DNA of 44,265 nt from Magnetococcales bacterium. GTDB lineage: Bacteria > Pseudomonadota > Magnetococcia > Magnetococcales > DC0425bin3. This document shows positions 26,462-42,151 of this stretch, piece after piece. Every line of letters begins with the position of its first letter. Position 1 is the stretch's first letter. Where the stretch lies: assembly GCA_015228935.1 (NCBI GenBank), contig JADGCO010000029.1, positions 1-44,265 on the forward strand. The letters are read 5' to 3'. The notes beneath the pieces are model-generated. The model searched no databases, was not told the DNA's origin, and worked only from the letters and a program-made list of their open reading frames with translations. Made by a program: the position numbers and the translations under genes.

Positions 26462-26701
26462 AAAAACGCCATGAAGCCTGCGGGCGACCGGGCGATGACC
26501 CTCAGCGCTTCACGCCGCATCCTGAATGGAAACCACCAGACGCTTGCCGAGAACGAAAAGAGCCTGCTCAAGAAGAGGAAGTTTTGTGCCATGGCGCGGG
26601 TCGAGGATGCGACGCGCCTCTTTCTCATCACGAAATAAATTGATATTTTGCGCCATTTGTGCAAAATATCAATTTATTATCCATTCACGTGGTGGTGTTC
26701 C
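26462..26701. other. 240-bp intergenic stretch before the defence-like pair
   Basis: It holds one possible 47-codon frame (26495-26638, MTLSASRRILNGN at its start) without a good ribosome-binding site or recognisable family, and a perfect inverted repeat at its end. I do not call a gene here. Confidence 0.5.
26634..26678. promoter_or_regulatory. Perfect 18-bp inverted repeat upstream of AAA/rloB operon
   Basis: AATAAATTGATATTTTGC (26634-26651) and its exact complement (26661-26678) flank a 9-base spacer GCCATTTGT, 23 bp before the ATPase start codon. The AT-rich symmetric sequence is suited to binding a dimeric regulator or to forming an RNA stem near the ribosome-binding region. The role is inferred. 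Confidence 0.7.
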
Positions 26702-27955
26702 ATGCTTGTCGAGTTTCGGGTCAAAAATTTTCGCTCCATTCGCGAGGAGCAGTGTCTGAGTCTGGTGGCTGCCAAGGATGCCGCCCACAAGGAGACACAC
26801 CTTTTGGCGACAGGTATCCATGCCGTGCCGCATCTGCTCAAATCGGCGGTCATCTATGGTCCCAATGCCGGCGGCAAATCGAATTTGATCCGGGCATTGG
26901 AATTCATGCAGGGTGTGGTGGCCACTTCAGCGACCCAGACACGCGAGGGCGATCTATTCAATTATTCCGCATTCATGCTGGATGCCGTATCCAGCAAGCA
27001 ACCCAGTGAATTTGAATTGACTTTTATTGACCAGGGTGTGCGTTTTCAATATGGTTTTTCCTTGATGCCGGAACGGGTGGTCGAAGAGTGGTTGCTGGTT
27101 TACAAGAGTGCCAAGCCACAAATGTGGTTTTCCCGGCGTTTTGATCCTGATGGTGGGAAGGATCTCTATGAATTTGGCCCGCACTTGACAGGAAAACGTT
27201 CCCTTTGGAAAGAGTCTACGCGCTCCAACGCCCTGTTCTTGTCCAAGGCCGTCGATCTCAACAGCGAGGGATTACGTCCCATTTATTCATGGATTACCAA
27301 AAAGCTCAGGATCATCGGTGCCGGGGATCGACCTCCATTTCATGCCTCGATCCTGCATGCAAAGACTGAGGAGGGAAAAACAGAGCTGTTGCGTTTTTTG
27401 GAAGCGGCTGATCTTGGTATCGTTGGCCTGGTGGCAAGTGATGAAAAAAAACTGAAGCAAATAATCAAAATGGGGTTGACGGCAGATGGCAAACCAGCAG
27501 CCGTGTACGCTGAAATGCCGATGCCCGTTTTTTTACATCAAGTCGAGGACATTGTGGCAAAAATTGACTTGGAAGATGAATCCGCAGGTACACAGAAATT
27601 TTTTGCTTTTGCCAGTTTTGTGATCAACATTCTTAAGGATGGTTGTGTATGGGTCGTCGATGAACTCGATGGCAGTTTTCATCCATTATTGGTACGCTTT
27701 TTGATCGGCTTGTTCCATTCCATCGATAATAATAAGAATGGTGCGCAATTGATTTTTACCACGCATGATGTTTCAATCTTAAACACAGAAATTTTTCGGC
27801 GTGATCAGATATGGTTTATCGAAAAGGATCAAACACAATCCAGCAAGCTTTATCCCCTGACAGATTTCAGTCCACGCCAAAAAGAGGCAATTGATCGTGG
27901 TTATCTCATAGGTCGGTATGGAGCGCTGCCATTTATTACAAATTTTAATTTATAA
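26702..27955 (+). CDS. AAA family ATPase (RloA/AbiLi-like)
   Basis: A 417-residue SMC/OLD-like ATPase with the layout of single-gene-adjacent defence ATPases. The N-terminus is MLVEFRVKNFRSIREEQCLS, with Walker A GPNAGGKSN (residues 53-61). An inserted middle domain follows, then Walker B VWVVDELDGSFHPLL (near 316-330) and the switch region LIFTTHDVSIL. Such ATPases pair with RloB-family Toprim proteins in abortive-infection-type systems. Base composition falls along the gene and is low by the 3' end, suggesting horizontal transfer. The rloB start lies 11 bp downstream. The start at 26702 aligns with the usual MLxEFRVxNFRS opening. Confidence 0.85.
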   Translation: MLVEFRVKNFRSIREEQCLSLVAAKDAAHKETHLLATGIHAVPHLLKSAVIYGPNAGGKSNLIRALEFMQGVVATSATQTREGDLFNYSAFMLDAVSSKQPSEFELTFIDQGVRFQYGFSLMPERVVEEWLLVYKSAKPQMWFSRRFDPDGGKDLYEFGPHLTGKRSLWKESTRSNALFLSKAVDLNSEGLRPIYSWITKKLRIIGAGDRPPFHASILHAKTEEGKTELLRFLEAADLGIVGLVASDEKKLKQIIKMGLTADGKPAAVYAEMPMPVFLHQVEDIVAKIDLEDESAGTQKFFAFASFVINILKDGCVWVVDELDGSFHPLLVRFLIGLFHSIDNNKNGAQLIFTTHDVSILNTEIFRRDQIWFIEKDQTQSSKLYPLTDFSPRQKEAIDRGYLIGRYGALPFITNFNL

Positions 27956-27965
27956 GGATTTATTC

Positions 27966-28628
27966 ATGGCTATAGACAATCATCCTCGAATACGCCAGAA
28001 TAATAAATTAAAAAGAAAGAAATATAAGCGTGCGAGTTATGATCGTATTTTGATTGTTTGTGAAGGAGAAAAGACTGAGGTGAATTATTTTGAAGAAATT
28101 CGAATAAGTTGCAGATTGCAAACTGCTAATGTACAGATTAAACATAGTGAATACGGAACAAATCCATTGCAAATAGTCGAATATGCTGTAGATTACTGTA
28201 GGAAACATGGCAATAGGTATGAACGTATTTATTGTGTTTTTGACCGTGATGAACATATTAATTATTTTAATGCAATAAATAGCGCTTCAGCAAAAGACAA
28301 AAAAATTAAAAATGAACTTGGTAAATATATTTATTTTTCAGCAATTCCATCCAATCCTTGTTTTGAATTGTGGCTATTATTACACTTTGAATTGATCACT
28401 CGCGAAATTCACCGTGACGAGGTCAAGCGTTTATTGCGTCAATCAGAATATTTGCCTGATTATACCAAAGGAGGAAGCAAATATTTTGAGCGTACCCGAC
28501 ACAAATTGAACGATGCTTTTGCAAATGTCGAAAAACAAAATTCCGAGCGTCAACGTCATGGGCACGAGAATCCATCCACAGCGGTAGGTCAGCTCGTCAA
28601 GTGTCTATTGGCCATGGGGGAACGTTGA
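27966..28628 (+). CDS. RloB family protein (Toprim-like nuclease domain)
   Basis: A 220-residue protein of the RloB family. After a basic N-terminus (NNKLKRKKYKR) comes the Toprim-like acidic motif RILIVCEGEKTEVNYFEEI (about 26-44), then CVFDRDEHINYFNA (DxD motif near 93-95), and IPSNPCFELWLLLHFE (near 130-145). Toprim-like nuclease domains in such proteins are expected to cut nucleic acid when the ATPase senses infection. The gene is strikingly AT-rich compared with its neighbours. AAGGA lies before the ATG; the ATPase gene ends 11 bp upstream. RloB occurs both in type I restriction loci and with AAA ATPases in AbiL-type modules; no hsd genes are present here. Confidence 0.85.
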   Translation: MAIDNHPRIRQNNKLKRKKYKRASYDRILIVCEGEKTEVNYFEEIRISCRLQTANVQIKHSEYGTNPLQIVEYAVDYCRKHGNRYERIYCVFDRDEHINYFNAINSASAKDKKIKNELGKYIYFSAIPSNPCFELWLLLHFELITREIHRDEVKRLLRQSEYLPDYTKGGSKYFERTRHKLNDAFANVEKQNSERQRHGHENPSTAVGQLVKCLLAMGER

Positions 28629-28685: not shown

Positions 28686-30200
28686 TCAGCGCTGTTTTTT
28701 GCGACGGAAATAATCCAGGACGGCGTGGACGGGAATGTAGCCGCGCAGAACGCCTTGTTTGCTGACCACAGGGAGCATGCGGAGGGAGTGTTCCAGGATG
28801 AGGTTGGTGGCCTGGTTGATGCTGCCCTGCATGGGGATGGAGATCAGGACCTGGTTTTCGTTGATTTTTCCCAGGGGCAGGGTGCAGATGGCCTTGTCGC
28901 GGGCGCTCATGGCCTGGGTGCCGAAAAAAGGCCCCATCAATTGCCTGAGGTCGCTTTGACTGACCACCCGGACCAGCTTGCCATGACGTTCGATGCCGAT
29001 ATAACGAAAACCATCCTGCCGCATGGCGTTGATGGCTTTGATGACCCGATCTTCCTCTTTCAGGCTGAAGGGGGGAATCGTGGTGACGATCTTGATGCTG
29101 CCGGCTTCATCTGGATGGGGCAGACCATCCGCAACCCCATAGACAAGATTGGGCGGCGGCAAAACGATGCCACCCTTGCCCCCAGCCATCTGGGATGCAT
29201 GGGGTCCGGATGCGTCTTGCTGCTCCTGAAGGGAATCACCTTCGGTGGCGAATTCAGAAAGGGGGAACCCTTTTTGTTGCCCGACCAGATCGACATCCAG
29301 TCCACTCAGGGTGGTGTCTGAGGGTTCGATGGCGGCATTTTCCGGCTTGCCTTTACCTCCGGGAGCGGATTTGGAAGGAGAGGCGGGTGTTTTTCCTGCC
29401 GGTGGTGCGGCGGTTGCCTTGGTGGCAGTGGCTGACTTGGTTCCAGTCGCTTCCCGGGATGGTTCGACTGGTGCCGGTGCGGCGGCCTTCGCCGGAGCTG
29501 GAGCCGGAGTCGGAGCGGGAGTTGGCGCTGGTGTCGGGGCTGGTGTGGATTCCGGTTCGGCTGGAGCAGCCTTTGCCTTGGGCTCCTTGTTTTCGTCCGC
29601 CGTCCCTTCGATATCCACCTTGAACAATATTTCGCACAGCCCCTTGGAGAGGATCCATACGGAAGGTTCAACGGGAAACTTGGAAACCTGAATATCGACC
29701 GTGGCGGCCAGGTAGGTGCGGTTGTCGGGAATGGATTCCGGAAACTCGGCATATTGCGTATAGCTGGTGGGGAGGACCAGAAAAAGGTGCGAACCGTCCA
29801 CCTTTTTTTCCACCAGATCGTTCATGGCACCAACCACCTGGTTGGCAATTTCCTGGAAACCTTCGCTGACCTCTTCGTTGTAATTGCGGTTTTTGACCTG
29901 TTCCTGGATGGCGGCCTCGGGGATCATCATCATCAGCCCGGCCAGGGAGATGGAGGTGGCCACATCCATGACGATATGGATATCGCCGGAGTTTTTGCCA
30001 TCCTCCAGGACATAGGCGATGGTTCGGTCTGTTTCGAAGACCGGCTCCATTTCCTCACGGCCACGCATCAGGGCAAGATCCTTCAGCACGCAGGTGATGG
30101 GGGCTGCGGTGAGGGTGTTCAGGTCATTGGCCAGTCGCGTGAAGAAGTTCAGAAAAAAAGGACGGGCCTTTTTGAGGATCTGCTCTTCAGATGTGGGCAT
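28686..30200 (-). CDS. CheC/CheX-like phosphatase domain fused to a CBS pair
   Basis: A 504-residue protein at the 3' end of the chemosensory operon. Residues ~1-195 resemble the CheC/CheX/FliY fold; the segment EGFQEIANQVVGAMNDLVEKK carries the E-x-x-N phosphatase-type motif (near 114-117) with a proline about 23 residues on. Residues ~205-330 are a disordered Pro-Ala-Thr-Lys linker with perfect TPAP repeats. Residues ~370-500 form two CBS motifs (INAMRQDGFRYIGIERHGKLVRVV and LILEHSLRMLPVVSKQGVLRGYI), which usually bind adenine nucleotides. The combination suggests nucleotide-controlled dephosphorylation or sequestration of the CheY proteins. The phosphatase part is an inference from motif likeness. 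Confidence 0.7.
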   Translation of the reverse strand: MPTSEEQILKKARPFFLNFFTRLANDLNTLTAAPITCVLKDLALMRGREEMEPVFETDRTIAYVLEDGKNSGDIHIVMDVATSISLAGLMMMIPEAAIQEQVKNRNYNEEVSEGFQEIANQVVGAMNDLVEKKVDGSHLFLVLPTSYTQYAEFPESIPDNRTYLAATVDIQVSKFPVEPSVWILSKGLCEILFKVDIEGTADENKEPKAKAAPAEPESTPAPTPAPTPAPTPAPAPAKAAAPAPVEPSREATGTKSATATKATAAPPAGKTPASPSKSAPGGKGKPENAAIEPSDTTLSGLDVDLVGQQKGFPLSEFATEGDSLQEQQDASGPHASQMAGGKGGIVLPPPNLVYGVADGLPHPDEAGSIKIVTTIPPFSLKEEDRVIKAINAMRQDGFRYIGIERHGKLVRVVSQSDLRQLMGPFFGTQAMSARDKAICTLPLGKINENQVLISIPMQGSINQATNLILEHSLRMLPVVSKQGVLRGYIPVHAVLDYFRRKKQR

Positions 30201-30264: not shown

Positions 30265-30627
30265 TTATTTGAAAAACTGACCCAGGGTGGCGCGCAGGGT
30301 ATCCGGGGTAAAGGGTTTTTTGATATGGCCATTGGCACCGCTTTTGACGGCTTCGGCGACTTTGGCTTCGCCCCCTTCGGTGGTGACCATGACGATGGGC
30401 GTTTTGTCACCTGTTTTGCGGACCTCCTTGACGAAGGTGAGTCCGTCCATGTTGGGCATGTTCCAGTCGGAGAGGATCAGATCGCATTTGGATGCGGCCT
30501 GGGTTTCCAGTCCTTTGACACCGTCACCGGCTTCCAGGATTTCATCAATCTTGAAACCGGCCTGGCGGAGGCCCCGGGTAACGATCTTCCTCATGACGCT
30601 GGAATCATCGACGATCAGGACACGCAT
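30265..30627 (-). CDS. cheY: CheY-like response regulator
   Basis: A 120-residue single-domain receiver. VDDSS (6-10) supplies acidic residues, Asp54 in LILSDWNMPNMDG is the phospho-acceptor, TTEGGEAKVAEA carries the conserved Thr, and Lys in HIKKPFTP closes the active site. It is the closest match here to a motor-binding CheY. It lies between the CheX-like gene and the CBS-fusion gene in the operon, and is likely phosphorylated by the hybrid CheA. Confidence 0.93.
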   Translation of the reverse strand: MRVLIVDDSSVMRKIVTRGLRQAGFKIDEILEAGDGVKGLETQAASKCDLILSDWNMPNMDGLTFVKEVRKTGDKTPIVMVTTEGGEAKVAEAVKSGANGHIKKPFTPDTLRATLGQFFK

Positions 30628-30772: not shown

Positions 30773-31246
30773 TCAAATGCTGAAGATGACGATCAGGGAG
30801 TGATCCTGCATGTGAAAGGTAAGCTGTTGCGTGGGATGGGCTGTTTTCCATTGGGCAACATACTCCGAACCCATGATGGCCATGGGGGTGCTGATGGTGA
30901 TGCCGCTGATCTGCGACTGCGACTTCATGCCGCCGCAGACCATGTTGGCCAGTTCGGCGACACCGTCCAGGAGATCCTCCTGGGTCAATTCCCTGGTTTC
31001 GTTGCCGGTGATGGATTTGATGATGGCGGCAAGGGAACGTTGGCTGGTCATGACGGCGACGACGCCGGGGCAGGAGCCAAGCAGGTAGATCACGCCGCAC
31101 ACCTCCTGAGTCAGTTGGAAGATGGGCAGGGTTTTCACCGGCTCGCAGACGACGCGGTTCCAGGTTTCCGATTCGAGGATTTGGCAGGTCACGTTTTGCA
31201 ACGTTTCCACCATGATACGGCAATTGTTTGCCTGGTCTGACATCAT
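30773..31246 (-). CDS. cheX: CheX-like CheY-P phosphatase
   Basis: A 157-residue protein of the CheX type. It has a GVIYLLGSCPGVVAVMTSQ strand-turn region, then the catalytic helix EDLLDGVAELANMVCGGMKSQ with the D-x-x-x-E-x-x-N motif (about 89-96), and STPMAIMGSEY after it. CheX dimers hydrolyse the aspartyl phosphate of CheY. It is encoded between two cheY genes, which would be its substrates. It is distinct from, but shares the fold of, the first part of the CBS-fusion protein. Confidence 0.8.
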   Translation of the reverse strand: MMSDQANNCRIMVETLQNVTCQILESETWNRVVCEPVKTLPIFQLTQEVCGVIYLLGSCPGVVAVMTSQRSLAAIIKSITGNETRELTQEDLLDGVAELANMVCGGMKSQSQISGITISTPMAIMGSEYVAQWKTAHPTQQLTFHMQDHSLIVIFSI

Positions 31247-31258
31247 GCGGAAAATCTC

Positions 31259-31633
31259 CTAGCCACCCACGCCCAGGGCTTCCATGATGCGGGCCGCCAT
31301 CTCTTCCTGGGAAAAGGGCTTGGTTTGGTAGTGAACGGCTCCGGCTTGAATGGCTTTGATGATATATTCCCGTTCCCCTTCCGTTGTGACCATCATCACC
31401 GGAATATTTTTGATGCGCGGATTGGCCTTGATGGATTTCAGGACTTCGAGGCCATTCATGCCGGGCATGTTCCAGTCGAGGAGGATGAGATTGATTTCCT
31501 GGCCGAGGTCCTGGAGAATTTCCAGACCGGCGACCCCATTTTCGGCTTCCAGCACATCGAAACCCAGGATTCCCCCGATACCGGCAATGACGCGGCGTAT
31601 GGTTTTGGAATCGTCAATGGTGAGCAGTTTCAT
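31259..31633 (-). CDS. cheY: CheY-like response regulator (second)
   Basis: A 124-residue receiver: IDDSKTIRRVI at the N-terminus, phospho-acceptor Asp53 in LILLDWNMPGMNG, TTEGEREYI with the conserved Thr, and Lys in YQTKPFSQEEM. The ATG at 31633 has AGGA eight bases before it; the alternative at 31639 is too close to that site. The cheR stop (31644) is a few bases upstream, so translation is probably coupled. Having two CheY proteins in one operon suggests separate outputs or a phosphate sink. Confidence 0.92.
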   Translation of the reverse strand: MKLLTIDDSKTIRRVIAGIGGILGFDVLEAENGVAGLEILQDLGQEINLILLDWNMPGMNGLEVLKSIKANPRIKNIPVMMVTTEGEREYIIKAIQAGAVHYQTKPFSQEEMAARIMEALGVGG

Positions 31634-31643
31634 GGCCATGATC

Positions 31644-32561
31644 CTATGTACCTGGTTTCGGCAACACGCGATCCGGTGGGGATGGCCTGTAGGTGGCGGC
31701 GGTGGACGCTGTTGCTGTTTGCCTGGGCTTGGGACGGTACAACGTGGCGCTGCCGAGGGTAACCTGATCGAAAGCGGTTGTATAGCCTCGCGGCGATTCA
31801 GAAGCACCGATGGCCAGAAGGCCATCCGGGGCCAATGACGCATGCAGTTTTTGATAAATCTCGCTTTTCAATTCATTGGAAAAATAGATGAGTACATTGC
31901 GACACAGAATGAGATCAAAAACGCCATGTTCGGCAAAGCTCTCCTTCAAATTGAAGGATTTGAAGGTCACGAGCCGGCGTATGGCAGAATTGACTTCATG
32001 AGCCAGATTGTTGGCCTGCGGGATGAAATAGCGTTCCAGGAAGGCCGGGCGCATCCCCCGGGAGATGGCCAACTGGCTGTAGCGGGCTGTTTTGGCAATC
32101 ATGAGGGCAGTCGGGGAAATGTCGGTTGCCAGGATTTGAAAGCGTTCCAGGGGGGGGGCGGTGGAGCCCATCTTGCGGCAACCGTGATCGAGCAGCATGG
32201 CGATTGAGTAAGGTTCCTGACCGGTCGAACAGGCCGCTGACCAGATGCGCACCTGGGGCTGATGTTCCCCTTTTTTCAACAGGATCGGAACCACAAAATC
32301 CGCCATGGCCGAAAAAAACGAGGCATCCCGAAACCAGAGAGTCTCGTTGGTGGTCATCGCATCGACAACCTTGGTCTTCAAAGGTCCCGTATCGGCCAGA
32401 AGTTTTTGATGAAATTCAATAAAATCCCGGCAGCCGGACTGGACCAGCAGCACGTTCAGCCGGTTTTCGACCAGGTACTCCTTGCCATCGGCAATCAGAA
32501 TGCCACTATGTTCATGGACATAGTGCCGAATCAGGTCGAATTCTTCACGCGAGATAGGCAT
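31644..32561 (-). CDS. cheR: Chemotaxis methyltransferase CheR
   Basis: A 305-residue S-adenosylmethionine-dependent enzyme that methylates glutamates on the MCP. The N-terminal helical domain is ISREEFDLIRHYVHEHSGI. The catalytic domain shows RIWSAACSTGQEPYSIAMLL (AdoMet loop), ILATDISPTALMIAK and FDLILCRNVLIYFS. The C-terminus is short and proline-rich, without TPR repeats. The ATG at 32561 fits the family start and lies 7 bp after the cheB stop (32569). Confidence 0.94.
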   Translation of the reverse strand: MPISREEFDLIRHYVHEHSGILIADGKEYLVENRLNVLLVQSGCRDFIEFHQKLLADTGPLKTKVVDAMTTNETLWFRDASFFSAMADFVVPILLKKGEHQPQVRIWSAACSTGQEPYSIAMLLDHGCRKMGSTAPPLERFQILATDISPTALMIAKTARYSQLAISRGMRPAFLERYFIPQANNLAHEVNSAIRRLVTFKSFNLKESFAEHGVFDLILCRNVLIYFSNELKSEIYQKLHASLAPDGLLAIGASESPRGYTTAFDQVTLGSATLYRPKPRQTATASTAATYRPSPPDRVLPKPGT

Positions 32562-32568
32562 GCGCTGG

Positions 32569-33930
32569 TTACCGGCATAGATCCGAAATTCTGGGGCCAA
32601 TCTTGTCCAACGGCAAGACTTCGTCCGCGAGTCCCGACTCTTCCACCGCCCGTGGCATGCCGTAGACGACGCAACTCTCCTGGTTCTGGGAGATGCACCA
32701 GGTATGCTTTTGTCGTTTGAGCAGCTCCACGCCCTGTGCGCCGTCACGACCCATCCCGGTCAGGATGACTGCCAGGACATTGCCGGTGAAATTTTCCGCT
32801 ACGGATTGGAAGAGAACATCCACTGCCGGACGACACTCATTCACTCTGGGTCCTTCATTGAGGGAAACAACCATGCCGCCGGCGTCACTCTTGATACCCA
32901 TGTGAAATCCACCCATGGCCAGGATGACACGCCCCGGGCCGATTGGCAATCCTTCCTGAGCTTCCTGAACTTCCATACCTGAAGTTCGACTCAACTGAGC
33001 AGCCAGGGAGGCCGTAAAGACCGGGGGCATGTGTTGCACGATCAGGGTCGGGATCGTCAGGGATCGGCCAATTCCGGACAGCAGTTGGGTCAAGGCTGCC
33101 GGACCACCGGTGGAGGAACCGATCAACAGCAGGTCAAAGTGCATGGGTTCCGCTTTGTCCTGGCTGGAAACTTTTCGGTGTGGTGACATGGATCGCGTGG
33201 CAGCGGCGGTTGGGGTCACAGGGGAAGGAGATGGTCCCGGACGTGGAGCCGCAGACGGCACGGAACGCAGGGCCGGAGTCGGCACGCTCCGTGGCATCGG
33301 GGGAGGCACCTTGGGGGGAAGCGTCACGGAAGGAGCCGGAAGCGGTGGCGAAGCAGGTGACCGGGATGGTGCCGGACGTGGCATCGGAAATGGTGCCGGT
33401 TTTTGTTCTTCCGGTTCGGGCGCGGTCCTGGTCGAAACAGGAGCGCGTGGTCCAGAAACATCCACGTTGACAACAGGTCTCCCGGGGGCCACCGGGGTGT
33501 TTGATTGGGCCGGATGGTCTTTTTTCTGCAACAACAGGGTCAGAATGGGTTCAAGATCGCGTCGCAGGGCTTCCCGTGCCCGGGTGGCATTGGACTCCAG
33601 GGGTTTGGTGACAAAATCCAGGGCACCGGCCTGCAAACACTCCATGACCAGATTGGCATTGGAGCGGGAAAGGCCGCTCACCATGATCACGGTGATGTCG
33701 GGATGGTTCTTGTGAAGATATTTTAACGTTTCCAGCCCATCCAGGACCGGCATTTCCACGTCGAGAAGGATCACTTCCGGCTGATGCAGCGCCAACTGGT
33801 CGAGGGCTTCGCGGCCATTGCTGGTCGAGGCGACCACCTGCACACCGGCGACGCTGCCGGCCACACTCTTCATGATCATCCGGTAGGTGATCGTGTCATC
33901 CACCACCATGATGCGGAGGGAGGCACCCAT
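32569..33930 (-). CDS. cheB: Chemotaxis methylesterase CheB with long linker
   Basis: A 453-residue two-domain enzyme. Receiver: VDDTITYRMIM, phospho-acceptor Asp57 in VILLDVEMPVLDG, Lys in DFVTKPLE. The C-terminal methylesterase has the catalytic Ser in LLIGSSTGGPAAL (near residue 268), His in LIVQHMPPVF and Asp in ILTGMGRDGAQG. The ~130-residue linker between them is very rich in Pro, Ser, Arg and Ala (for example PAPSRSPASPPLPAPS), far longer than in enteric CheB. It removes methyl groups added by CheR, giving adaptation. Confidence 0.94.
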   Translation of the reverse strand: MGASLRIMVVDDTITYRMIMKSVAGSVAGVQVVASTSNGREALDQLALHQPEVILLDVEMPVLDGLETLKYLHKNHPDITVIMVSGLSRSNANLVMECLQAGALDFVTKPLESNATRAREALRRDLEPILTLLLQKKDHPAQSNTPVAPGRPVVNVDVSGPRAPVSTRTAPEPEEQKPAPFPMPRPAPSRSPASPPLPAPSVTLPPKVPPPMPRSVPTPALRSVPSAAPRPGPSPSPVTPTAAATRSMSPHRKVSSQDKAEPMHFDLLLIGSSTGGPAALTQLLSGIGRSLTIPTLIVQHMPPVFTASLAAQLSRTSGMEVQEAQEGLPIGPGRVILAMGGFHMGIKSDAGGMVVSLNEGPRVNECRPAVDVLFQSVAENFTGNVLAVILTGMGRDGAQGVELLKRQKHTWCISQNQESCVVYGMPRAVEESGLADEVLPLDKIGPRISDLCR

Positions 33931-33954: not shown

Positions 33955-35646
33955 TCATGAACTGGACCATCGGTAGGTGGCTTCGGCGATGTTCGCGTTG
34001 CCGTGATAGGTCAATTCCGTGCAGAGGGAACGCACCAGGGCAATGCCGCGGCCACCATGGTGCATGTTGCCTTCCAGGAAGGATTGTACCTGGTTGGGAT
34101 CAAAGCCGGTCCCACTGTCGGCGATGTGGATGCGCAGCTCACCGCCCTGGGGATGGGGCGTATGGGTCAGGTGGATTTCAATCTGACCTTCGGTGAGGGC
34201 CGCCAGCCGCTCTTCGCGCTGGGCATAGTAGCGCAGAAAGCCTTCCGGGGTCTCCTTGGTGCGGGTATCCAGCTTCAGCAGGCCATGGTCCAGGGCATTG
34301 GAAAAAAGTTCGGCCAGAACCGTATAGATCCGTTCCCGTTGCCCGGAGGGTGCCTGGAGATTCATCAGGGCATTGATGATGGTGGGCAGGGGATCGACCG
34401 ACTTCAGGGTGTGGGCGGAGAAGGTAAAGGAAATTTTCCAACTGGAAGGGGGAATATCCTTTTGGGGCAATTGTGGCCGACCTCCAGGCGGCTCTTCGCC
34501 GGCCCGGGCACAGACCACCTCCAGCAGACTGATATCGTCGGTTTGCACGGCATGACCACGAAAATGATTGAGTTTGTCCAGAATCATGGCAAACAACCGA
34601 TCCGGTGGGTTGTTGCCATCGAAGAGGGCATCCAGACCTTCCTGGGAAAACATCGCTCCCTGGTCATTGGTGGCTTCGGTCAGCCCATCCGAGTAGAGAA
34701 AGACCCGATAATCGTCTTGCATCTCCAGGATTTCAACCTTGCGGTCTTCCCGGCGCATGGGGGCGACGCCCAGGGGAAGATGGCTGGAAAGAATGCGCCG
34801 CACGATGCGGCCACTCTGATCGGTGACCAGGACATCGGGCAGTCCGCCATTCCAGACCATGATGCTTTTTTGCCGAAAGTCGATTTCGATCAGGCAGGCG
34901 GCGCAAAACATGCGGGTCGGCAGGACCTTGCGCAGTTTGTCGTTGATCTGTTCCGCCAGATCGCCGATGGAAAACCCTTGCGCCGTCAGGCCATAAAACA
35001 GTTCCGCCAGGGGAAGTGCCCCGACCGAGGCCGACAGCCCATGGCCGGTAAAATCGCCCAGCATGATGTGCAGGCTGCCGGCGGGGGTGTAACTGGCCAC
35101 GAGCAGGTCACCGTTGAACAGGGACATGGGGGTGGTCCAGTGGTTCAGACAGGGGGCATCCAGAAGATTGCCGGCCCGAACAATATTGGAAAAAAGATGT
35201 TGTCCAACCTCCATTTCGCGGCGGACGCTCTCCTGGTGTTTTTCCAACTGCTCTTTTTGGCTGCGCAGAACGGCATGGAGCTGGCGGATCCGCTCCATGG
35301 CGCTGATTTTGGCTTGCAGGATGACACGGTTGAACGGCTTGGTCAGAAAATCGTCGCCACCTGCTTCGATGCAGCGTGCCAACCCTTCGTCGTCGGTGAC
35401 GGCGGTGAGAAAAATAATGGGGACGAAGCGATCCAGGGAGGCTTCCTTGATCTGTCGGGCCGCCTCGTAGCCGTTCATCAACGGCATGCGGATATCCATC
35501 AAGACCAGATCGGGTCGTTCGGATTTGAACAGGGCCACGCCATCCCGGCCATTGTAGGCAGTGACCACAGGGTGGCCATCCCGGCTCAGCAGCCGGTTCA
35601 GGATGGTACTGTTGATGCGGTCATCATCAACGATCAGGATTTTCAT
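33955..35646 (-). CDS. HsbR-like response regulator: REC, SpoIIE phosphatase, HATPase
   Basis: A 563-residue three-part switch. Residues 1-120 are a receiver (VDDDRIN, Asp51 in LVLMDIRMP, Lys in FLTKPFN). A short coiled coil at ~125-155 leads into a PP2C/SpoIIE phosphatase domain (LFNGDLLVASYTPAGSLHIM, then LGDFTGHGLSASVGALP, FLYSDGLTEATN, TDDISLLEV). The C-terminal domain is an anti-sigma-factor-type ATPase (VLAELFSNALDHGLLKLD N-box, IADSGTGFDP, HGGRGIALVRSLC). This order is that of Pseudomonas HsbR, which both phosphorylates and dephosphorylates the STAS protein HsbA. A STAS gene lies 51 bp upstream here. The likely kinase is CheA of the same operon. Confidence 0.88.
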   Translation of the reverse strand: MKILIVDDDRINSTILNRLLSRDGHPVVTAYNGRDGVALFKSERPDLVLMDIRMPLMNGYEAARQIKEASLDRFVPIIFLTAVTDDEGLARCIEAGGDDFLTKPFNRVILQAKISAMERIRQLHAVLRSQKEQLEKHQESVRREMEVGQHLFSNIVRAGNLLDAPCLNHWTTPMSLFNGDLLVASYTPAGSLHIMLGDFTGHGLSASVGALPLAELFYGLTAQGFSIGDLAEQINDKLRKVLPTRMFCAACLIEIDFRQKSIMVWNGGLPDVLVTDQSGRIVRRILSSHLPLGVAPMRREDRKVEILEMQDDYRVFLYSDGLTEATNDQGAMFSQEGLDALFDGNNPPDRLFAMILDKLNHFRGHAVQTDDISLLEVVCARAGEEPPGGRPQLPQKDIPPSSWKISFTFSAHTLKSVDPLPTIINALMNLQAPSGQRERIYTVLAELFSNALDHGLLKLDTRTKETPEGFLRYYAQREERLAALTEGQIEIHLTHTPHPQGGELRIHIADSGTGFDPNQVQSFLEGNMHHGGRGIALVRSLCTELTYHGNANIAEATYRWSSS

Positions 35647-35697
35647 GCCGTGCCGTTGCAAGGATCGATGGAGGTTGTCTTTCGGGCTGTATGATCG

Positions 35698-36015
35698 TCA
35701 ATTGATTTTGAAAAGACGCTGAAAATTGGCCGTTTCCAAAATTTTGCGAATTTCCGGGCGGGCATTGACGATTTCAATATCGGCTTCGTTGGCCCCGGCC
35801 TCTTCCCGAAGCAGAAGGAGCATGCCCAGGGCCGAAGAGTCGATGTACTCGGTCCCGGTCAGATCGATGATGAATTTGCGATTTTTGTTGACCGACCCAT
35901 CGATCTCATTCTGATAGGCGGTACGAAACTGGGAGTGCATTTCAAAGTTGAAGCGGCCCTTGATGCTGATGGAGGTTTCGTTTTCATTGCGATTGACCGT
36001 GATGGTTCCCGACAT
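35698..36015 (-). CDS. STAS-domain anti-sigma-factor antagonist (HsbA-like)
   Basis: A 105-residue STAS protein: SISIKGRFNFEMHSQF, KFIIDLTGTEYIDSSALGML and RPEIRKILETANFQRLF. Ser60 in the YIDSSALG loop is the expected phosphorylation site, as in SpoIIAA. Its neighbour encodes a SpoIIE phosphatase plus HATPase in one chain, which fits a writer/eraser pair for this serine. The ATG at 36015 is preceded by GGAGA. What it binds when unphosphorylated (an anti-sigma factor or a diguanylate cyclase) is not encoded in the window. Confidence 0.9.
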   Translation of the reverse strand: MSGTITVNRNENETSISIKGRFNFEMHSQFRTAYQNEIDGSVNKNRKFIIDLTGTEYIDSSALGMLLLLREEAGANEADIEIVNARPEIRKILETANFQRLFKIN

Positions 36016-36055
36016 CGTTCTCTCCTGCTGGCAATGGGTGATGACCGACTGAAAG

Positions 36056-37069
36056 TCAAAACAGTTCAATGTCCCCTTCGTCCATGGAAGTCTGATCGAC
36101 AGGTTTGTGGCTGCTCTGGGCAAACAGATCCAGATGTTCCTGTAATGTCTCGCGTATCGCCTGAACTCGTGCCGCCTGATCCGTCAATCCCGGCTTGAGA
36201 CAGCCACAGCATACCACATGGGTGAATTGTTCCATGAGATTGATGTGTTTTTCCAGGCTTTGCACGAGCTGTGTCACCATATCCTCAAACTGGAGAGACA
36301 TCACCGCCGTTCCCACATCCTGATTGATCCGTTCGGTGATTTCCGACACCTTGACCAGGGTGGCGGCTGTGAACCTGTCGATCTTGCTGACTTCTTCCAT
36401 CATTTCATCGACCCGGCCCTTGGATTCGATGGCAAAGCTCATGTCCTTGGATGCCATGATTTCGATGATTTCCTTGGCTGATTCGATATTTTCCTGGGAG
36501 CGACGCACCACCTGATTGATTTTTTGACTGAACTGGTTTGAATCCTTGGAAAGCTTGCGGACCTGGTCGGCCACAACGGCAAACGCCTTGCCCGCCTCTC
36601 CGGCTCGTGCCGAGACAATTCTCGCATTGAGGGCCAAGACGTTAGTCTGTTCCGCAATGGCGTCAATGTCATGCAAAAAATTGACGACCTCGTTCATCTG
36701 GTTGGAAAGATCGTCGATGCGATGCACCATTTCCATGCTTTGGCGACTGACCAGCAGAATGTGGTCCACGAAAGAGCGCAAAATCCGGTCGGTTTCACTG
36801 ACGAATTGCCGGATATTGATGCGTTTCTGGGCCTCATCACCCTGGGGTTTTTCGGAACTTTCCGCCCCTTCCATGCTTGTGGTCAGGGAGGTCACCAGCT
36901 CGTTCTGACTGTTGGATTGATCGCGCAGACCATTGAAACTGGCCGTTAATTTGACGATGGCATCCTGGACGAGAAAGCGAATCTGGCCGGCATCATGGCG
37001 CAATACATCCATTTCCAGGTGAAGCTGCCCCTGGATCTCTTGCGCAAGCTGTTGTTCTTGATTGTCCAT
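36056..37069 (-). CDS. Soluble methyl-accepting chemotaxis protein
   Basis: A 337-residue MCP without any membrane helix or periplasmic domain. The signalling hairpin tip reads [20 protein letters not shown] followed by [17 protein letters not shown] (about 143-180), a slightly diverged form of the canonical tip. Coiled-coil helices extend on each side ([20 protein letters not shown]). A Cys-Cys-Gly-Cys cluster near residue 287-290 ([10 protein letters not shown]) could bind a metal or redox cofactor. The C-terminus is acidic and lacks the CheR-tether pentapeptide. It probably forms a cytoplasmic array with CheA and CheW. Its start lies within a 54-bp tandem duplication. Confidence 0.88.
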
Positions 37070-37152
37070 GATGGCGTTTTATGGATATCCGCTCTGCTCA
37101 AGCTGTTGTTCTTGATTGTCCATGATGGCGTTTTATGGATATCCGCTCTGCT
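37045..37152. repeat. Perfect 54-bp tandem duplication over the MCP start
   Basis: 37045-37098 and 37099-37152 are identical. Each holds, on the minus strand, the MCP start codon region, so the upstream copy supplies an extra ATG at 37123 followed after 14 codons by TAA (37079-37081), ending 9 bp before the true start at 37069. Confidence 0.95.
37079..37123 (-). other. Possible 14-codon leader ORF created by the duplication
   Basis: Reads [14 protein letters not shown] then stop, the first eight residues being the same as the MCP N-terminus. Whether it is translated is unknown; neither ATG has a strong ribosome-binding site. Confidence 0.4.
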
Positions 37153-37245
37153 GGGGTCTCACCGTTGGCTGTTCATGGATCGGGATGGGGAGCAGACCGT
37201 TGCGGGATCAACTTGCAATCAGGCCGTTGCGAGGAAAACACCCGA

Positions 37246-37749
37246 TCAGACTGTTTCGGAATCAACACCCAGGACACTGGCAACATCCAGGATGACCAGT
37301 AAATTGTTTTCAAACTCCACGACTCCATGGACAAAATCCGCCGCGATGCCGCGCAGGTTGGCCGGGGGGGGTTGAATGTTGTCGTCGGAAATTTCCAGCA
37401 CATCGCCCAGTTGATCGACGACCAGACCGACCGGATCCTGCCAGGGACAACGCGCCTCACCGATTTCCCGATTGATCTGGATCACCTCGCTGCGCGTTTT
37501 CATGATGACATTGTACTGCTTGCGCTTGTTGTTGGCCGTCCCCTCGCCGACAGGCTGTGCATCGTTCCAGCCCAGACGGCGTTTCAGGTCAAACAGGGTG
37601 ATGACGCGCCCGCGTATGTTCAGCATGCCGCGAATGTAATCGGGCGAGCCGGGCACCGGGGTACACTCCATGGAGCGATTGATTTCCCGCACGAGCAGAA
37701 TTTCGATGCCCAGATACAAATCGCCCAGGGTGAAGGTGCTGACGAGCAT
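37246..37749 (-). CDS. cheW: Chemotaxis adaptor CheW
   Basis: A 167-residue coupling protein: STFTLGDLYLGIEILLVREI at the N-terminus, then VPGSPDYIRGMLNIRGRVITLFDL (the conserved CheW core), VGLVVDQLGDVLEI, and VHGVVEFENNLLVILDV near the end. A ~20-residue insert (about 63-85, rich in Asn and Lys) separates two strands. CheW links the MCP to CheA. The gene starts 13 bp after the cheA stop and is followed by a 176-bp gap before the MCP. Confidence 0.94.
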   Translation of the reverse strand: MLVSTFTLGDLYLGIEILLVREINRSMECTPVPGSPDYIRGMLNIRGRVITLFDLKRRLGWNDAQPVGEGTANNKRKQYNVIMKTRSEVIQINREIGEARCPWQDPVGLVVDQLGDVLEISDDNIQPPPANLRGIAADFVHGVVEFENNLLVILDVASVLGVDSETV

Positions 37750-37762
37750 GGCTCACTCCCCC

Positions 37763-40700
37763 TTAAAAGTCTGTTGTCGGCTGGAGGGAAGAGACCACCT
37801 TCAGCAGCCGCTTTTTGTCGATGGTGGGCACGCAGGCGACAAATCCGGCCCGGATGCATCTTTGCTCCAGGTCGGAAGAGATGGAGGTCGTCGTGGCGAC
37901 CATGGGAATGTCACCATGGGAGGTGGCAGGCATTTCCACGGCCAGCTCAAAGCCATCCATGAGGGGCATGTTGATATCGGTGACGAGCAGATCGTATTGA
38001 TTGGAGCGCAGCATGGTCAGGGCCATCTGGCCATCTTCGGCCTGATCGATTTCAAAACCGATCTCCTTGAGATAGCTGGCGGTCAGCACCCGCAGGAAGG
38101 GGGTATCATCCACCACCAGGGCACGCAGACCGGCGGCATCGAATTTTGAATCCAACTGGGATGTGGTGATACGGGCCAGATCCAGAACCCGGTTGACATC
38201 CGGGAAGAGAACCACCCGGTCGTCCAACTGCGCCGAGCCAAACAGACCGTCCGCAACGATGGCCCGGGTATCCAGTTCAATATTGATTTCGCGGGTATCG
38301 ATGATGCGGGCGAAGATCAGGCCAGCCTGGATATCCGGAATATTGGGAACCACCATGCATAGATCATTGTCTTCATCCTCCCCTTCCGGACGGGGGGCCA
38401 GGCCCATTCCTTCCAGACCCATCACCTGATCCGGATAGATGGCCCGGAAGGTTTTGCGGTCGTAGCGCACATAGGGAAGGCCGCCAATATTGACGAGCAG
38501 GTTTGGCGATATTTTTTCCACCCGCCGCACCATGCTGTGGACGATGCCCATGAGCAGACCGGTATCGGTCTCCAGGAGGATGATGTTTTGCCGTTCGCGC
38601 AGGGCTTCGCGGCGTTCGGCATCCAGGTCCATGCGGGTGGCGCGTTCGACGTTGCTGAAGCTGATGTTGGCCCGTTCCATGACCCCGGCATAGTCGATGA
38701 TCAGGGAGACCGTGCCATCGCCCAGGATGGTGGTGGCCGAAAAGCAGACGTTGTCCTTGAAGAAGGAAGGGAGCGGTTTCACCACAATCTCTTCGCTGTC
38801 GAGGACCTCATCCACCACCATGCCAAACTCATTGCCGCCGACATTGAGGACCATGACGTAGGCGACAAGGCTGCCTGGATGGCGGCGATCCTCATTTTCC
38901 CGACGATTGCCGGAGTTCCGGCCACTGCTGACGCCAACCTTGGGGCGACTGGCAGCGGTGGCGGCCTCTTCGGCACGTTGCCGCCGGGTGCGCCGATCCG
39001 AGAGGCGCCCCCGCCGGTCGGGTTCGCTGCTGTCGGGCGGAAAGGTGCGTTGGATACCAAGGACATCAGCCAGGTCCACCAGGGGCAACAACATGTTACG
39101 CAAACGCAACACCGGGGCGTTGCCCACAGTTTCAATCTGATTGGAGCGATCTGATTCGGCCACCCGGACAATTTCCACCAGACCGATTTCCGGGATGGCA
39201 AAGCGTTGATTGCCAGCCGAAACGATCATGGCCGGAATGATGGCCAGGGTGAGGGGGAGTTTCAGGATGATGCGGGTACCCCGGCCGACCTTGGATTCGA
39301 TATGGACCGTGCCGCCCAATTTTTCAATATTGGTGCGCACCACGTCCATGCCCACGCCGCGGCCCGACACATCCGAGACTTTCTTGGCCATGGAGAGTCC
39401 CGGCAGGAAGATCAGATTCAGGGCCTCTTCCTCGCTCATGGCGTCGGCCTGTTCTTCGGTGATCTGACCTTTTTCGATGGCTTTCATCTTGATTTTGTTG
39501 CCATCGATACCGGCACCATCATCGCTCAGGGCAATATTGACCATGCCGTTTTCATGGTAGGCGGCGAGTTCCACCCGGCCGGCCTCGGGTTTGCCGATGG
39601 CGATACGGTCATTCGGTGCCTCGATGGCGTGATCGGCCACGTTGCGGATCATGTGGGTCAGGGGGTCGGAAAGATGTTCGATCACCGACTTGTCAAGGTC
39701 CACATCGCCGCCGCGCAGTTCCAGATCGATCTTTTTCTCCAGTTTGCGTGCCAGATCGCGAATGATGCGGGGAAATTTGTTGAAAACCACACTCACCGGC
39801 TGCATGCGGGCCTGCATCACCTTTTCCTGGATGCGGCTGGTGATCGAGTCCAGGTTTTGCACGAGCGGCCCGATGCTGGGATGCTGACTGGCCACATCGG
39901 CAGCGGCCCGGGTCAACTGGTTGCGGGCCAGAACCAGTTCTCCGGCCATATTGATCAATTCATCCAGCAACGAAACACTGACCCGCAGGGTCTCTTCCAC
40001 AGCTGGAGGCGCATTGCCCTTGCTGCTGCTGGTGGTGGTTGGCGTGGCTGCTGCGGCAGACGAAGATGTCGATCCTCCGCCCTTGCCGCTGCTCCCCTTG
40101 TTGTATCCCAGAATGCCACCAGTGGGTTTGCGCAGACGTGGCCGTCTGGTTTCCGGTTCTGCATCCGCCAGCACGGGCGTCAGTGCCGTGTCATCACCCT
40201 GTGCCCGCAACGGCAGGGGCTTGCCTCGTGAAACCGCAGAAATGGCCGAGGTCTCCGGTTGCAACTGCGGACGCAGTGCCGCCGCCAGCTTGACCAGGGA
40301 TTCGGGTATCTGAACGGGAGTAAAACTCTCACGCGAAAGTTGCAGCAGGGTTTGCAGGAGATCCGCTTCCAGCACGGTCGCCAGCAACACTTCCAGCACG
40401 TCATGGACCGTATGGAGACCCGGATCTGCGGAAACGTTCGGACTGGTTGCCACCACCAGACCGACGGATTCCATCAGGGCCTTCATTTTAGTGAAGAAGG
40501 ACTGTTTCTCGTCCGCATCCTTGGGGAGCTGCAGTTTGATGATGAAAAACAGTTGCCCGTGATGCACGGCATTGGTCACGGCTTCCGGGTACTGTTCAAG
40601 ATTTTTGAGATTGACCAGCACCGGGGGTCGGCTCAGTGCCCGGGAGGGTGCCGCCGGTTTTCCCGCAACGGCATCTTCGACCACGGCCTCCGCAACCCCG

Positions 40701-41260
40701 GCATCTTCGGCTGGAGGCTCGGATTCCGCCGGCGGGAGCGACTCACCTGCCGGTTCCGTTTCCGACGTTTCCGCCCCGGCGGGAGAAGACGGCTCCGGTA
40801 CCTCTGCCTCTGCCTCTGCCTCTACCGTTGCCGCTGCTGGTGTTGGTGCCGCTGCCGGTGGACCACCCCCGTCCAGATCCGCCAACAAGGCCTGAATCCG
40901 GGCCACCTGCTCGCTGGCATCGACACTCTCGCTGCCGCTGACATCGTTGATCATTGTCTGCAGCTTGTCGAGGCCCGCCAAAAGACTGTCGGTCACCGTC
41001 GGCGTGGCGACATTCGGATCATCGCGCACCTTGCCGAGCAGGTTTTCCATGGTATGGCTCAGCTTGGTGATGGCAGTGAGGCCAAAAAATCCAGCCGAGC
41101 CTTTGATGGAGTGAACACCCCGGAAAAGGCGATTGATGATATCCCGCTCCGTACTGCTGCCGTTCTCCTCCAACGTCAGCAGGTCGGGTTCTATGGTCTC
41201 AAGGTGTTCGACCGCTTCCTGGACGAACATCCCCAACAATTCATCGTCTTCCTCGGACAT
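37763..41260 (-). CDS. cheA: Hybrid CheA kinase with two CheW-like domains and receiver
   Basis: A 1165-residue kinase, first gene of the operon. Order: HPt domain (phosphorylated His50 in RGVHSIKGSAGFFG); a Pro/Glu/Ala-rich linker; a P2-like domain (~205-310); dimerisation helix (SLLDELINMAGELVLARNQL, near 420); ATPase domain (N-box HMIRNVADHAIE near 533, LSDDGAGID, GRGVGMDVVRTNIEKLGG near 637); a CheW-like domain (QRFAIPEIGLVEIVRV near 687) with a basic ~50-residue insert; a second CheW-like domain (~890-1040); and a C-terminal receiver (Asp near 1093 in LLVTDINMPLMDG). The ATG at 41260 (MSEEDDELLGMF) is preferred to a GTG frame from 41377. It would phosphorylate the CheY proteins, CheB, its own receiver and probably the HsbR-like protein. 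Confidence 0.93.
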   Translation of the reverse strand: MSEEDDELLGMFVQEAVEHLETIEPDLLTLEENGSSTERDIINRLFRGVHSIKGSAGFFGLTAITKLSHTMENLLGKVRDDPNVATPTVTDSLLAGLDKLQTMINDVSGSESVDASEQVARIQALLADLDGGGPPAAAPTPAAATVEAEAEAEVPEPSSPAGAETSETEPAGESLPPAESEPPAEDAGVAEAVVEDAVAGKPAAPSRALSRPPVLVNLKNLEQYPEAVTNAVHHGQLFFIIKLQLPKDADEKQSFFTKMKALMESVGLVVATSPNVSADPGLHTVHDVLEVLLATVLEADLLQTLLQLSRESFTPVQIPESLVKLAAALRPQLQPETSAISAVSRGKPLPLRAQGDDTALTPVLADAEPETRRPRLRKPTGGILGYNKGSSGKGGGSTSSSAAAATPTTTSSSKGNAPPAVEETLRVSVSLLDELINMAGELVLARNQLTRAAADVASQHPSIGPLVQNLDSITSRIQEKVMQARMQPVSVVFNKFPRIIRDLARKLEKKIDLELRGGDVDLDKSVIEHLSDPLTHMIRNVADHAIEAPNDRIAIGKPEAGRVELAAYHENGMVNIALSDDGAGIDGNKIKMKAIEKGQITEEQADAMSEEEALNLIFLPGLSMAKKVSDVSGRGVGMDVVRTNIEKLGGTVHIESKVGRGTRIILKLPLTLAIIPAMIVSAGNQRFAIPEIGLVEIVRVAESDRSNQIETVGNAPVLRLRNMLLPLVDLADVLGIQRTFPPDSSEPDRRGRLSDRRTRRQRAEEAATAASRPKVGVSSGRNSGNRRENEDRRHPGSLVAYVMVLNVGGNEFGMVVDEVLDSEEIVVKPLPSFFKDNVCFSATTILGDGTVSLIIDYAGVMERANISFSNVERATRMDLDAERREALRERQNIILLETDTGLLMGIVHSMVRRVEKISPNLLVNIGGLPYVRYDRKTFRAIYPDQVMGLEGMGLAPRPEGEDEDNDLCMVVPNIPDIQAGLIFARIIDTREINIELDTRAIVADGLFGSAQLDDRVVLFPDVNRVLDLARITTSQLDSKFDAAGLRALVVDDTPFLRVLTASYLKEIGFEIDQAEDGQMALTMLRSNQYDLLVTDINMPLMDGFELAVEMPATSHGDIPMVATTTSISSDLEQRCIRAGFVACVPTIDKKRLLKVVSSLQPTTDF

Positions 41261-41776: not shown

Positions 41777-42151
41777 ATGAGGAAAACGGTTTTGTCGGAA
41801 ATTTTGGATGAGCCGGTATTCGATAACAATGACACCCACCTCTGGATGGCTGTCATGGATCGGGCCGTGCGCGATCTTGTAGCGCTGGAACGGTACCGGC
41901 AGGATCCGACTGTCATGGAAGATCCCGTTTTTCGTTACGATTATCGTACCCTGAAAAAATGGTTTCACTCCTCTTCCATGGAGCCCGGTTCCTTCAACTG
42001 GATCTGTTCCCTGGTCAATATTGATCCGCGCTGGGCCTTGCGGCGCCTCGAAGATCGCCTCAAAGTGTGCCTGCTGCCCGAGTCGGCCAGAAGGGCCAGC
42101 GCCGCCCGCAATGAACGGGTACGGGCTGCCGCCGCAGCGCGAGCGGCCTGA
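41777..42151 (+). CDS. Unknown protein
   Basis: A 124-residue protein starting MRKTVLSEILDEPVFDNNDT. It has a central stretch YDYRTLKKWFHSSSMEPGSF, then NWICSLVNIDPRWALRRLED, and an Ala/Arg-rich C-terminus (RASAARNERVRAAAAARAA). There is no signal peptide or membrane helix. GAGGGAGG upstream of the ATG is an excellent ribosome-binding site, and a strong terminator follows 38 bp after the stop, so it is very likely a real, independently transcribed gene. I recognise no family. Confidence 0.7.
   Translation: MRKTVLSEILDEPVFDNNDTHLWMAVMDRAVRDLVALERYRQDPTVMEDPVFRYDYRTLKKWFHSSSMEPGSFNWICSLVNIDPRWALRRLEDRLKVCLLPESARRASAARNERVRAAAAARAA

Follow-up and report, generated by a model that had tools for sequence, protein, structure and literature searches.

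The chemosensory operon analyzed here carries, between its chemoreceptor gene and cheB, the genes of a predicted partner switch of the type represented by CrsR/CrsA and HsbR/HsbA. The observed base is the gene content of the operon, the intact motifs of the pair, its conservation in the order Magnetococcales and the absence of RpoS. On this base we favor, with a probability of about 0.6, a partner switch coupled to chemosensory signaling, in which the phosphotransfer steps and the target are the parts that we infer. Such a switch would take the coupling of a chemoreceptor array to a sigma factor beyond Shewanella-like systems, into a whole order that lacks RpoS and into another lineage of CheA. 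The order and its relatives also provide a comparative setting for the question of whether CheA drives the switch, with the pair lying in or apart from a che operon and with either HptB or CheA as its neighbor.

The arrangement, which an earlier note on this DNA described, is not new in itself. The che1 cluster of Shewanella oneidensis already carries crsR and crsA together with two MCP genes and che genes, the MCP genes sharing their transcription unit (PMC9855816). RpoS is sequestered there by CrsR, which also phosphorylates CrsA; of Che1 it has been said that it "could be" involved in controlling RpoS in Shewanella (PMC9855816, PMC6482189). In Pseudomonas aeruginosa, HsbR binds RpoS, unphosphorylated HsbA binds FlgM, and phosphorylated HsbA binds both HsbR and HsbD (PMC6482189).

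Organization of the operon

The window (the whole 44,265-nucleotide stretch of DNA that was analyzed) is contig C29 of genome G000, which comprises 4.7 Mb and is estimated to be 100% complete. Eleven genes run along its minus strand from position 41260 to 28686, from cheA through a CheX/CBS gene. In the order of their reading they are as follows, RSH being shorthand for the REC-SpoIIE-HATPase_c_2 protein:

37763..41260, minus strand: CheA with HPt, H-kinase_dim, HATPase, two CheW domains and a C-terminal REC (Pfam; clade apart from che1-type CheA)
37246..37749, minus strand: CheW (Pfam)
36056..37069, minus strand: MCP, soluble, signaling domain only, with a conserved C-terminal tail (Pfam; tail conservation)
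35698..36015, minus strand: STAS anti-sigma antagonist (CrsA/HsbA-like), predicted phospho-Ser60 (Pfam; TIGR00377 slightly below cut-off; conservation)
33955..35646, minus strand: RSH, REC-SpoIIE/PP2C-HATPase_c_2 (CrsR/HsbR-like) (Pfam; motifs; fold match to RssB and to RsbU-RsbW of Rv1364c)
32569..33930, minus strand: CheB (Pfam)
31644..32561, minus strand: CheR (Pfam)
31259..31639, minus strand: CheY (Pfam)
30773..31246, minus strand: CheX-type phosphatase (Pfam)
30265..30627, minus strand: second CheY-like REC protein
28686..30200, minus strand: CheX-like N-terminus (weak Pfam match, E..N motif) with C-terminal CBS domains

The earlier description of a CheA-CheW-MCP-CheB-CheR core with a STAS and a REC-SpoIIE-HATPase protein between MCP and cheB is thus borne out by Pfam in its genes, order and domains. 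The interval then given, 33955-41260, covers cheA to RSH, and the same-strand run continues from there to 28686. Intergenic gaps within the che run measure 4-64 bp, with two exceptions, 176 bp ahead of the MCP gene and 145 bp ahead of the second cheY. The best start codon for RSH is the ATG at 35646 rather than the TTG at 35661, and that of STAS is at 36015. Scans of the operon for promoters and terminators gave results at or near chance level, with no conspicuous consensus promoter. Past the end of the operon and convergent with it (26648-28628) lie an AAA ATPase gene and then a RloB-family gene (Pfam RloB), an RloA/RloB-like pair. At the other end is a gene for a conserved small protein, ORF124 (41777-42151), which had no match in the Pfam search; in most Magnetococcales this gene is divergent from cheA.

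Active sites and predicted structure of the STAS-RSH pair

The proposal of an HsbR/HsbA-type pair within a CheA operon holds at the level of catalytic residues. In RSH, the receiver conserves its acidic pocket and its Asp (the phospho-acceptor), Thr and Lys, the PP2C domain its metal-binding Asps, and the kinase domain its G boxes and N-box Glu/Asn; this holds for 31 Magnetococcales sequences and for nearly all of 39 other homologues. Ser60 of the STAS protein (after Asp; MSG counted as 1) is invariant in all 69 homologues compared; the Ser that follows it is replaced by Ala in 5 of the 69.

An AlphaFold model of RSH, built with an alignment of 31 sequences (mean pLDDT 82.6, pTM 0.51), finds its best structural matches in P. 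aeruginosa RssB, over the REC-PP2C portion, and in the RsbU-RsbW part of Rv1364c. As a prediction, the model fits the expectation for a receiver-controlled phosphatase and anti-sigma kinase. Unlike RssB, RSH has an added kinase domain and retains the PP2C metal-binding Asps. With the RsbU-RsbV-RsbW switch of sigma-B in Gram-positive bacteria it shares the logic of serine kinase, PP2C phosphatase and STAS antagonist, whereas RSH fuses kinase and phosphatase in one protein and carries a receiver domain. The C-terminal kinase domain of CrsR and HsbR is an anti-sigma domain (PMC6482189). The anti-sigma activity of the Magnetococcales system, by analogy, probably resides in the kinase domain of RSH itself, and the earlier statement that no anti-sigma factor is adjacent is probably wrong.

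The Magnetococcales RSH proteins form a clade of their own with 100/100 support. Four Magnetococcales genomes also encode RSH paralogues (L138, L139, L140, L141), near which no STAS gene was found.

Conservation across the Magnetococcales

A full-length RSH orthologue is present in 41 of 48 Magnetococcales genomes, and each of the 7 genomes without it is 82% complete or less. In all 32 Magnetococcales loci read, the window included, STAS directly precedes RSH. Two of these loci are truncated by contig ends; among the 30 that are informative, CheA lies in the same run as STAS-RSH in 23 and is missing from it in 7. In most loci cheA-cheW-MCP stands upstream of the pair. With 23 of the 30 informative loci showing it, the gene order is retained far above chance level, and the search for conserved co-occurrence in related genomes that had been suggested as a check supports the arrangement.

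The 7 loci in which the pair lies apart from CheA belong to six genomes of genus g17 and to G023. Wherever the contig reaches far enough, the pair in these genomes has kept its position next to ORF124 and a nitronate monooxygenase gene, with fliK-flgD-flgE-fliL-fliM farther out. This flagellar neighborhood holds for g17; the window contig stops short of that point and shares the synteny of ORF124 and the nitronate monooxygenase gene. Most of these 7 genomes encode, elsewhere, CheA proteins approximately 56-61% identical to that of the window. Since G010, the sister of G023 in the RSH tree, retains the full operon, the separation in G023 is derived, and g17 is probably a second case of derived separation. 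The separated loci therefore reveal that a genome can retain both the pair and the che genes after the two have come apart. The separation of the pair from cheA in 7 loci, most of whose genomes have CheA-clade genes at other sites, counts against the partner-switch reading given above.

Genus g17 also carries the CheX/CBS gene twice (L131, L142, L147, L202, L203 and L204 versus L195-L197). In those read, the copy adjoining RSH has an E..N motif without its Asn, whereas the Asn is retained in the copy at the che locus. The CheX/CBS protein was considered as a phosphatase for RSH and was rejected on the loss of this Asn beside RSH.

Relatives outside the order and the chemoreceptor

Across 399 surveyed genomes of the phylum, 39 STAS-RSH loci were found outside the Magnetococcales. 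In 15 of these the gene immediately following RSH encodes a lone HPt protein (112-156 aa), and most of the 15 can be seen to lie in a flagellar cluster, which is the HsbA-HsbR-HptB layout. Another 13 are che clusters without a lone HPt; the remainder comprise 2 flagellar loci without HPt and 9 loci with neither. Because a lone HptB follows RSH in the 15 and is missing from the 13 che loci, HptB and CheA look, from gene neighborhoods, as if they were alternative donors. With most homologues from HptB-bearing fli loci, window RSH shares 39-45% identity, compared with 29-38% for most of the rest. The deep branch of the RSH tree that bears on affinity with HptB-linked versus che-linked homologues has a support of 81/38; an earlier quick tree had given 91.

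The chemoreceptor gene appears to be a long-standing part of this neighborhood. Of the 13 che clusters outside the order, 9 have, just before STAS, an MCP gene whose product belongs to the subfamily of the window MCP; these 9 score 104-160 bits, and other full-length MCPs outside the order score at most 55 bits. The window MCP (gene at 36056-37069, tail at 36056-36085) and the MCPs beside STAS in distant che loci have in common the C-terminal tail MDEGDIELF, with the pattern (S/T/N)MDEG(D/E)(I/V)ELF conserved between Magnetococcales and distant che loci (L229:7905-9086, L245, L247). This type of tail is unlike the WEEF-type tails on other MCPs in those loci. In g17 this MCP persists elsewhere with its tail intact, and in G026, G034, G036 and G040 it shares a contig with the displaced che genes. 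The shared subfamily and tail in distant loci and the survival of this MCP in g17 thus indicate that MCP-STAS-RSH is an old neighborhood. A literature search on the DVELF tail found no paper. The window MCP has no sensor domain recognizable by Pfam, so that its input is undefined and the direct chemoreceptor input claimed earlier was overstated.

The phosphodonor and the proposed mechanism

In the mechanism proposed, the MCP-CheW-CheA array would set the level of CheA autophosphorylation, and the HPt domain of CheA would pass phosphate to the RSH receiver, with CheY, the second CheY and CheB as competing acceptors. Phosphorylated RSH would have an active PP2C domain that dephosphorylates Ser60 of STAS; in unphosphorylated RSH, the HATPase domain would phosphorylate the same serine. 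The state of STAS would then determine its choice of partner, by which a sigma factor would be freed or sequestered, the holder of the sigma factor being either the RSH kinase domain itself or FlgM.

The counterpart in Shewanella is similar in that a REC-PP2C-kinase/anti-sigma protein and a STAS antagonist lie within a cheA/cheW/MCP/cheR/cheB locus (PMC9855816). However, S. oneidensis che1 has CheD and an RpoS target, whereas the operon in the window has no CheD, has CheX proteins and belongs to an order without RpoS. The CheAs differ as well. That of the window has two CheW domains and a REC domain and is of another lineage; in a quick tree, which includes two paralogues on very long branches, window CheA falls in a supported clade separate from the CheAs of the other STAS-RSH che loci, which are of che1 type. 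The C-terminal receiver of window CheA (37763-38000) keeps its Asp and has a degenerate KP motif (CVPTIDK). The HsbR-HsbA-HptB system resembles the Magnetococcales pair in protein architecture, in the closer relationship of RSH to HptB-linked fli homologues and in the presence of FlgM; it differs in that the Magnetococcales pair has no adjacent HptB, lies within a che operon and occurs without RpoS.

CheA was said earlier to be the only phosphodonor in the operon. There it is indeed the sole HPt protein; the genome as a whole has about 50 HPt domains, among them one lone HptB-like protein. Another HPt, either the HptB-like protein or a hybrid kinase, may feed the switch, in which case the pair would share an operon with che genes just for co-expression. 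We consider this rather unlikely. HptB feeds HsbR in Pseudomonas (PMC6482189), the pair persists in 7 loci without an adjacent cheA, and the lone HPt of the window genome (133 aa, contig C114, 5505-5906) fits an HptB profile better than a general HPt profile (48 versus 39 bits). However, this candidate sits in a different signaling cluster, no HptB gene adjoins the pair in any of the 32 Magnetococcales loci (versus 15 loci outside the order), and embedding among che genes is the rule in the Magnetococcales and recurs in 13 outside loci. CheA as donor to RSH is thus favored by the lack of an adjoining HptB and weakened by the 7 loci without CheA; it is a better bet than the alternatives and would appear likely, although the readable literature yielded no case in which a CheA phosphorylates an RSH-type receiver. 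The cluster on contig C114 (L065:5505-11818), Wsp-like by gene order only, opens with the gene of the lone HptB-like HPt, which is followed by those of CheW, CheR, CheW, an MCP and the HPt-bearing start of a CheA.

Output of the switch

RpoS, the demonstrated target in both model systems, is absent from the window genome and from all 48 Magnetococcales genomes at the curated cut-off; as a control, 1 of 14 genomes scored above this cut-off, with E. coli listed first. The parallel to the known models therefore breaks down at the output, RpoS is rejected in this role, and the target must be another. The sigma factors of the window genome are RpoD, two RpoH-like proteins, FliA, an RpoE-like protein and one ECF. 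FlgM is present in 45 of 48 Magnetococcales genomes and in that of the window. FliA acting via FlgM is the most economical guess for the output, and RpoH or another sigma factor would be a second guess. A more far-reaching version of the favored partner switch, which we regard as doubtful, is that the chemoreceptor array directly sets sigma availability through STAS Ser60, with FliA/FlgM replacing RpoS as output; a taxis kinase would then tune flagellar genes as well as motor switching, and MDEGDIELF would be a docking signal of this branch.

Alternatively, the target may be a diguanylate cyclase and not a sigma factor, on the model of HsbD, which binds phosphorylated HsbA in P. aeruginosa (PMC6482189); this seems improbable, as a check at the level of the operon found no such gene in it. 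Highly improbable is the reading of RSH as chiefly a sink for CheA phosphate or a regulator of the array, comparable to a sink CheY, with STAS working in the array and not on a sigma factor: the operon does have several REC domains to a single HPt, STAS and RSH are placed between MCP and cheB, and the tail of the neighboring MCP is conserved, but the phosphatase and kinase sites of RSH and the phospho-serine of STAS are fully conserved, even in loci without che genes.
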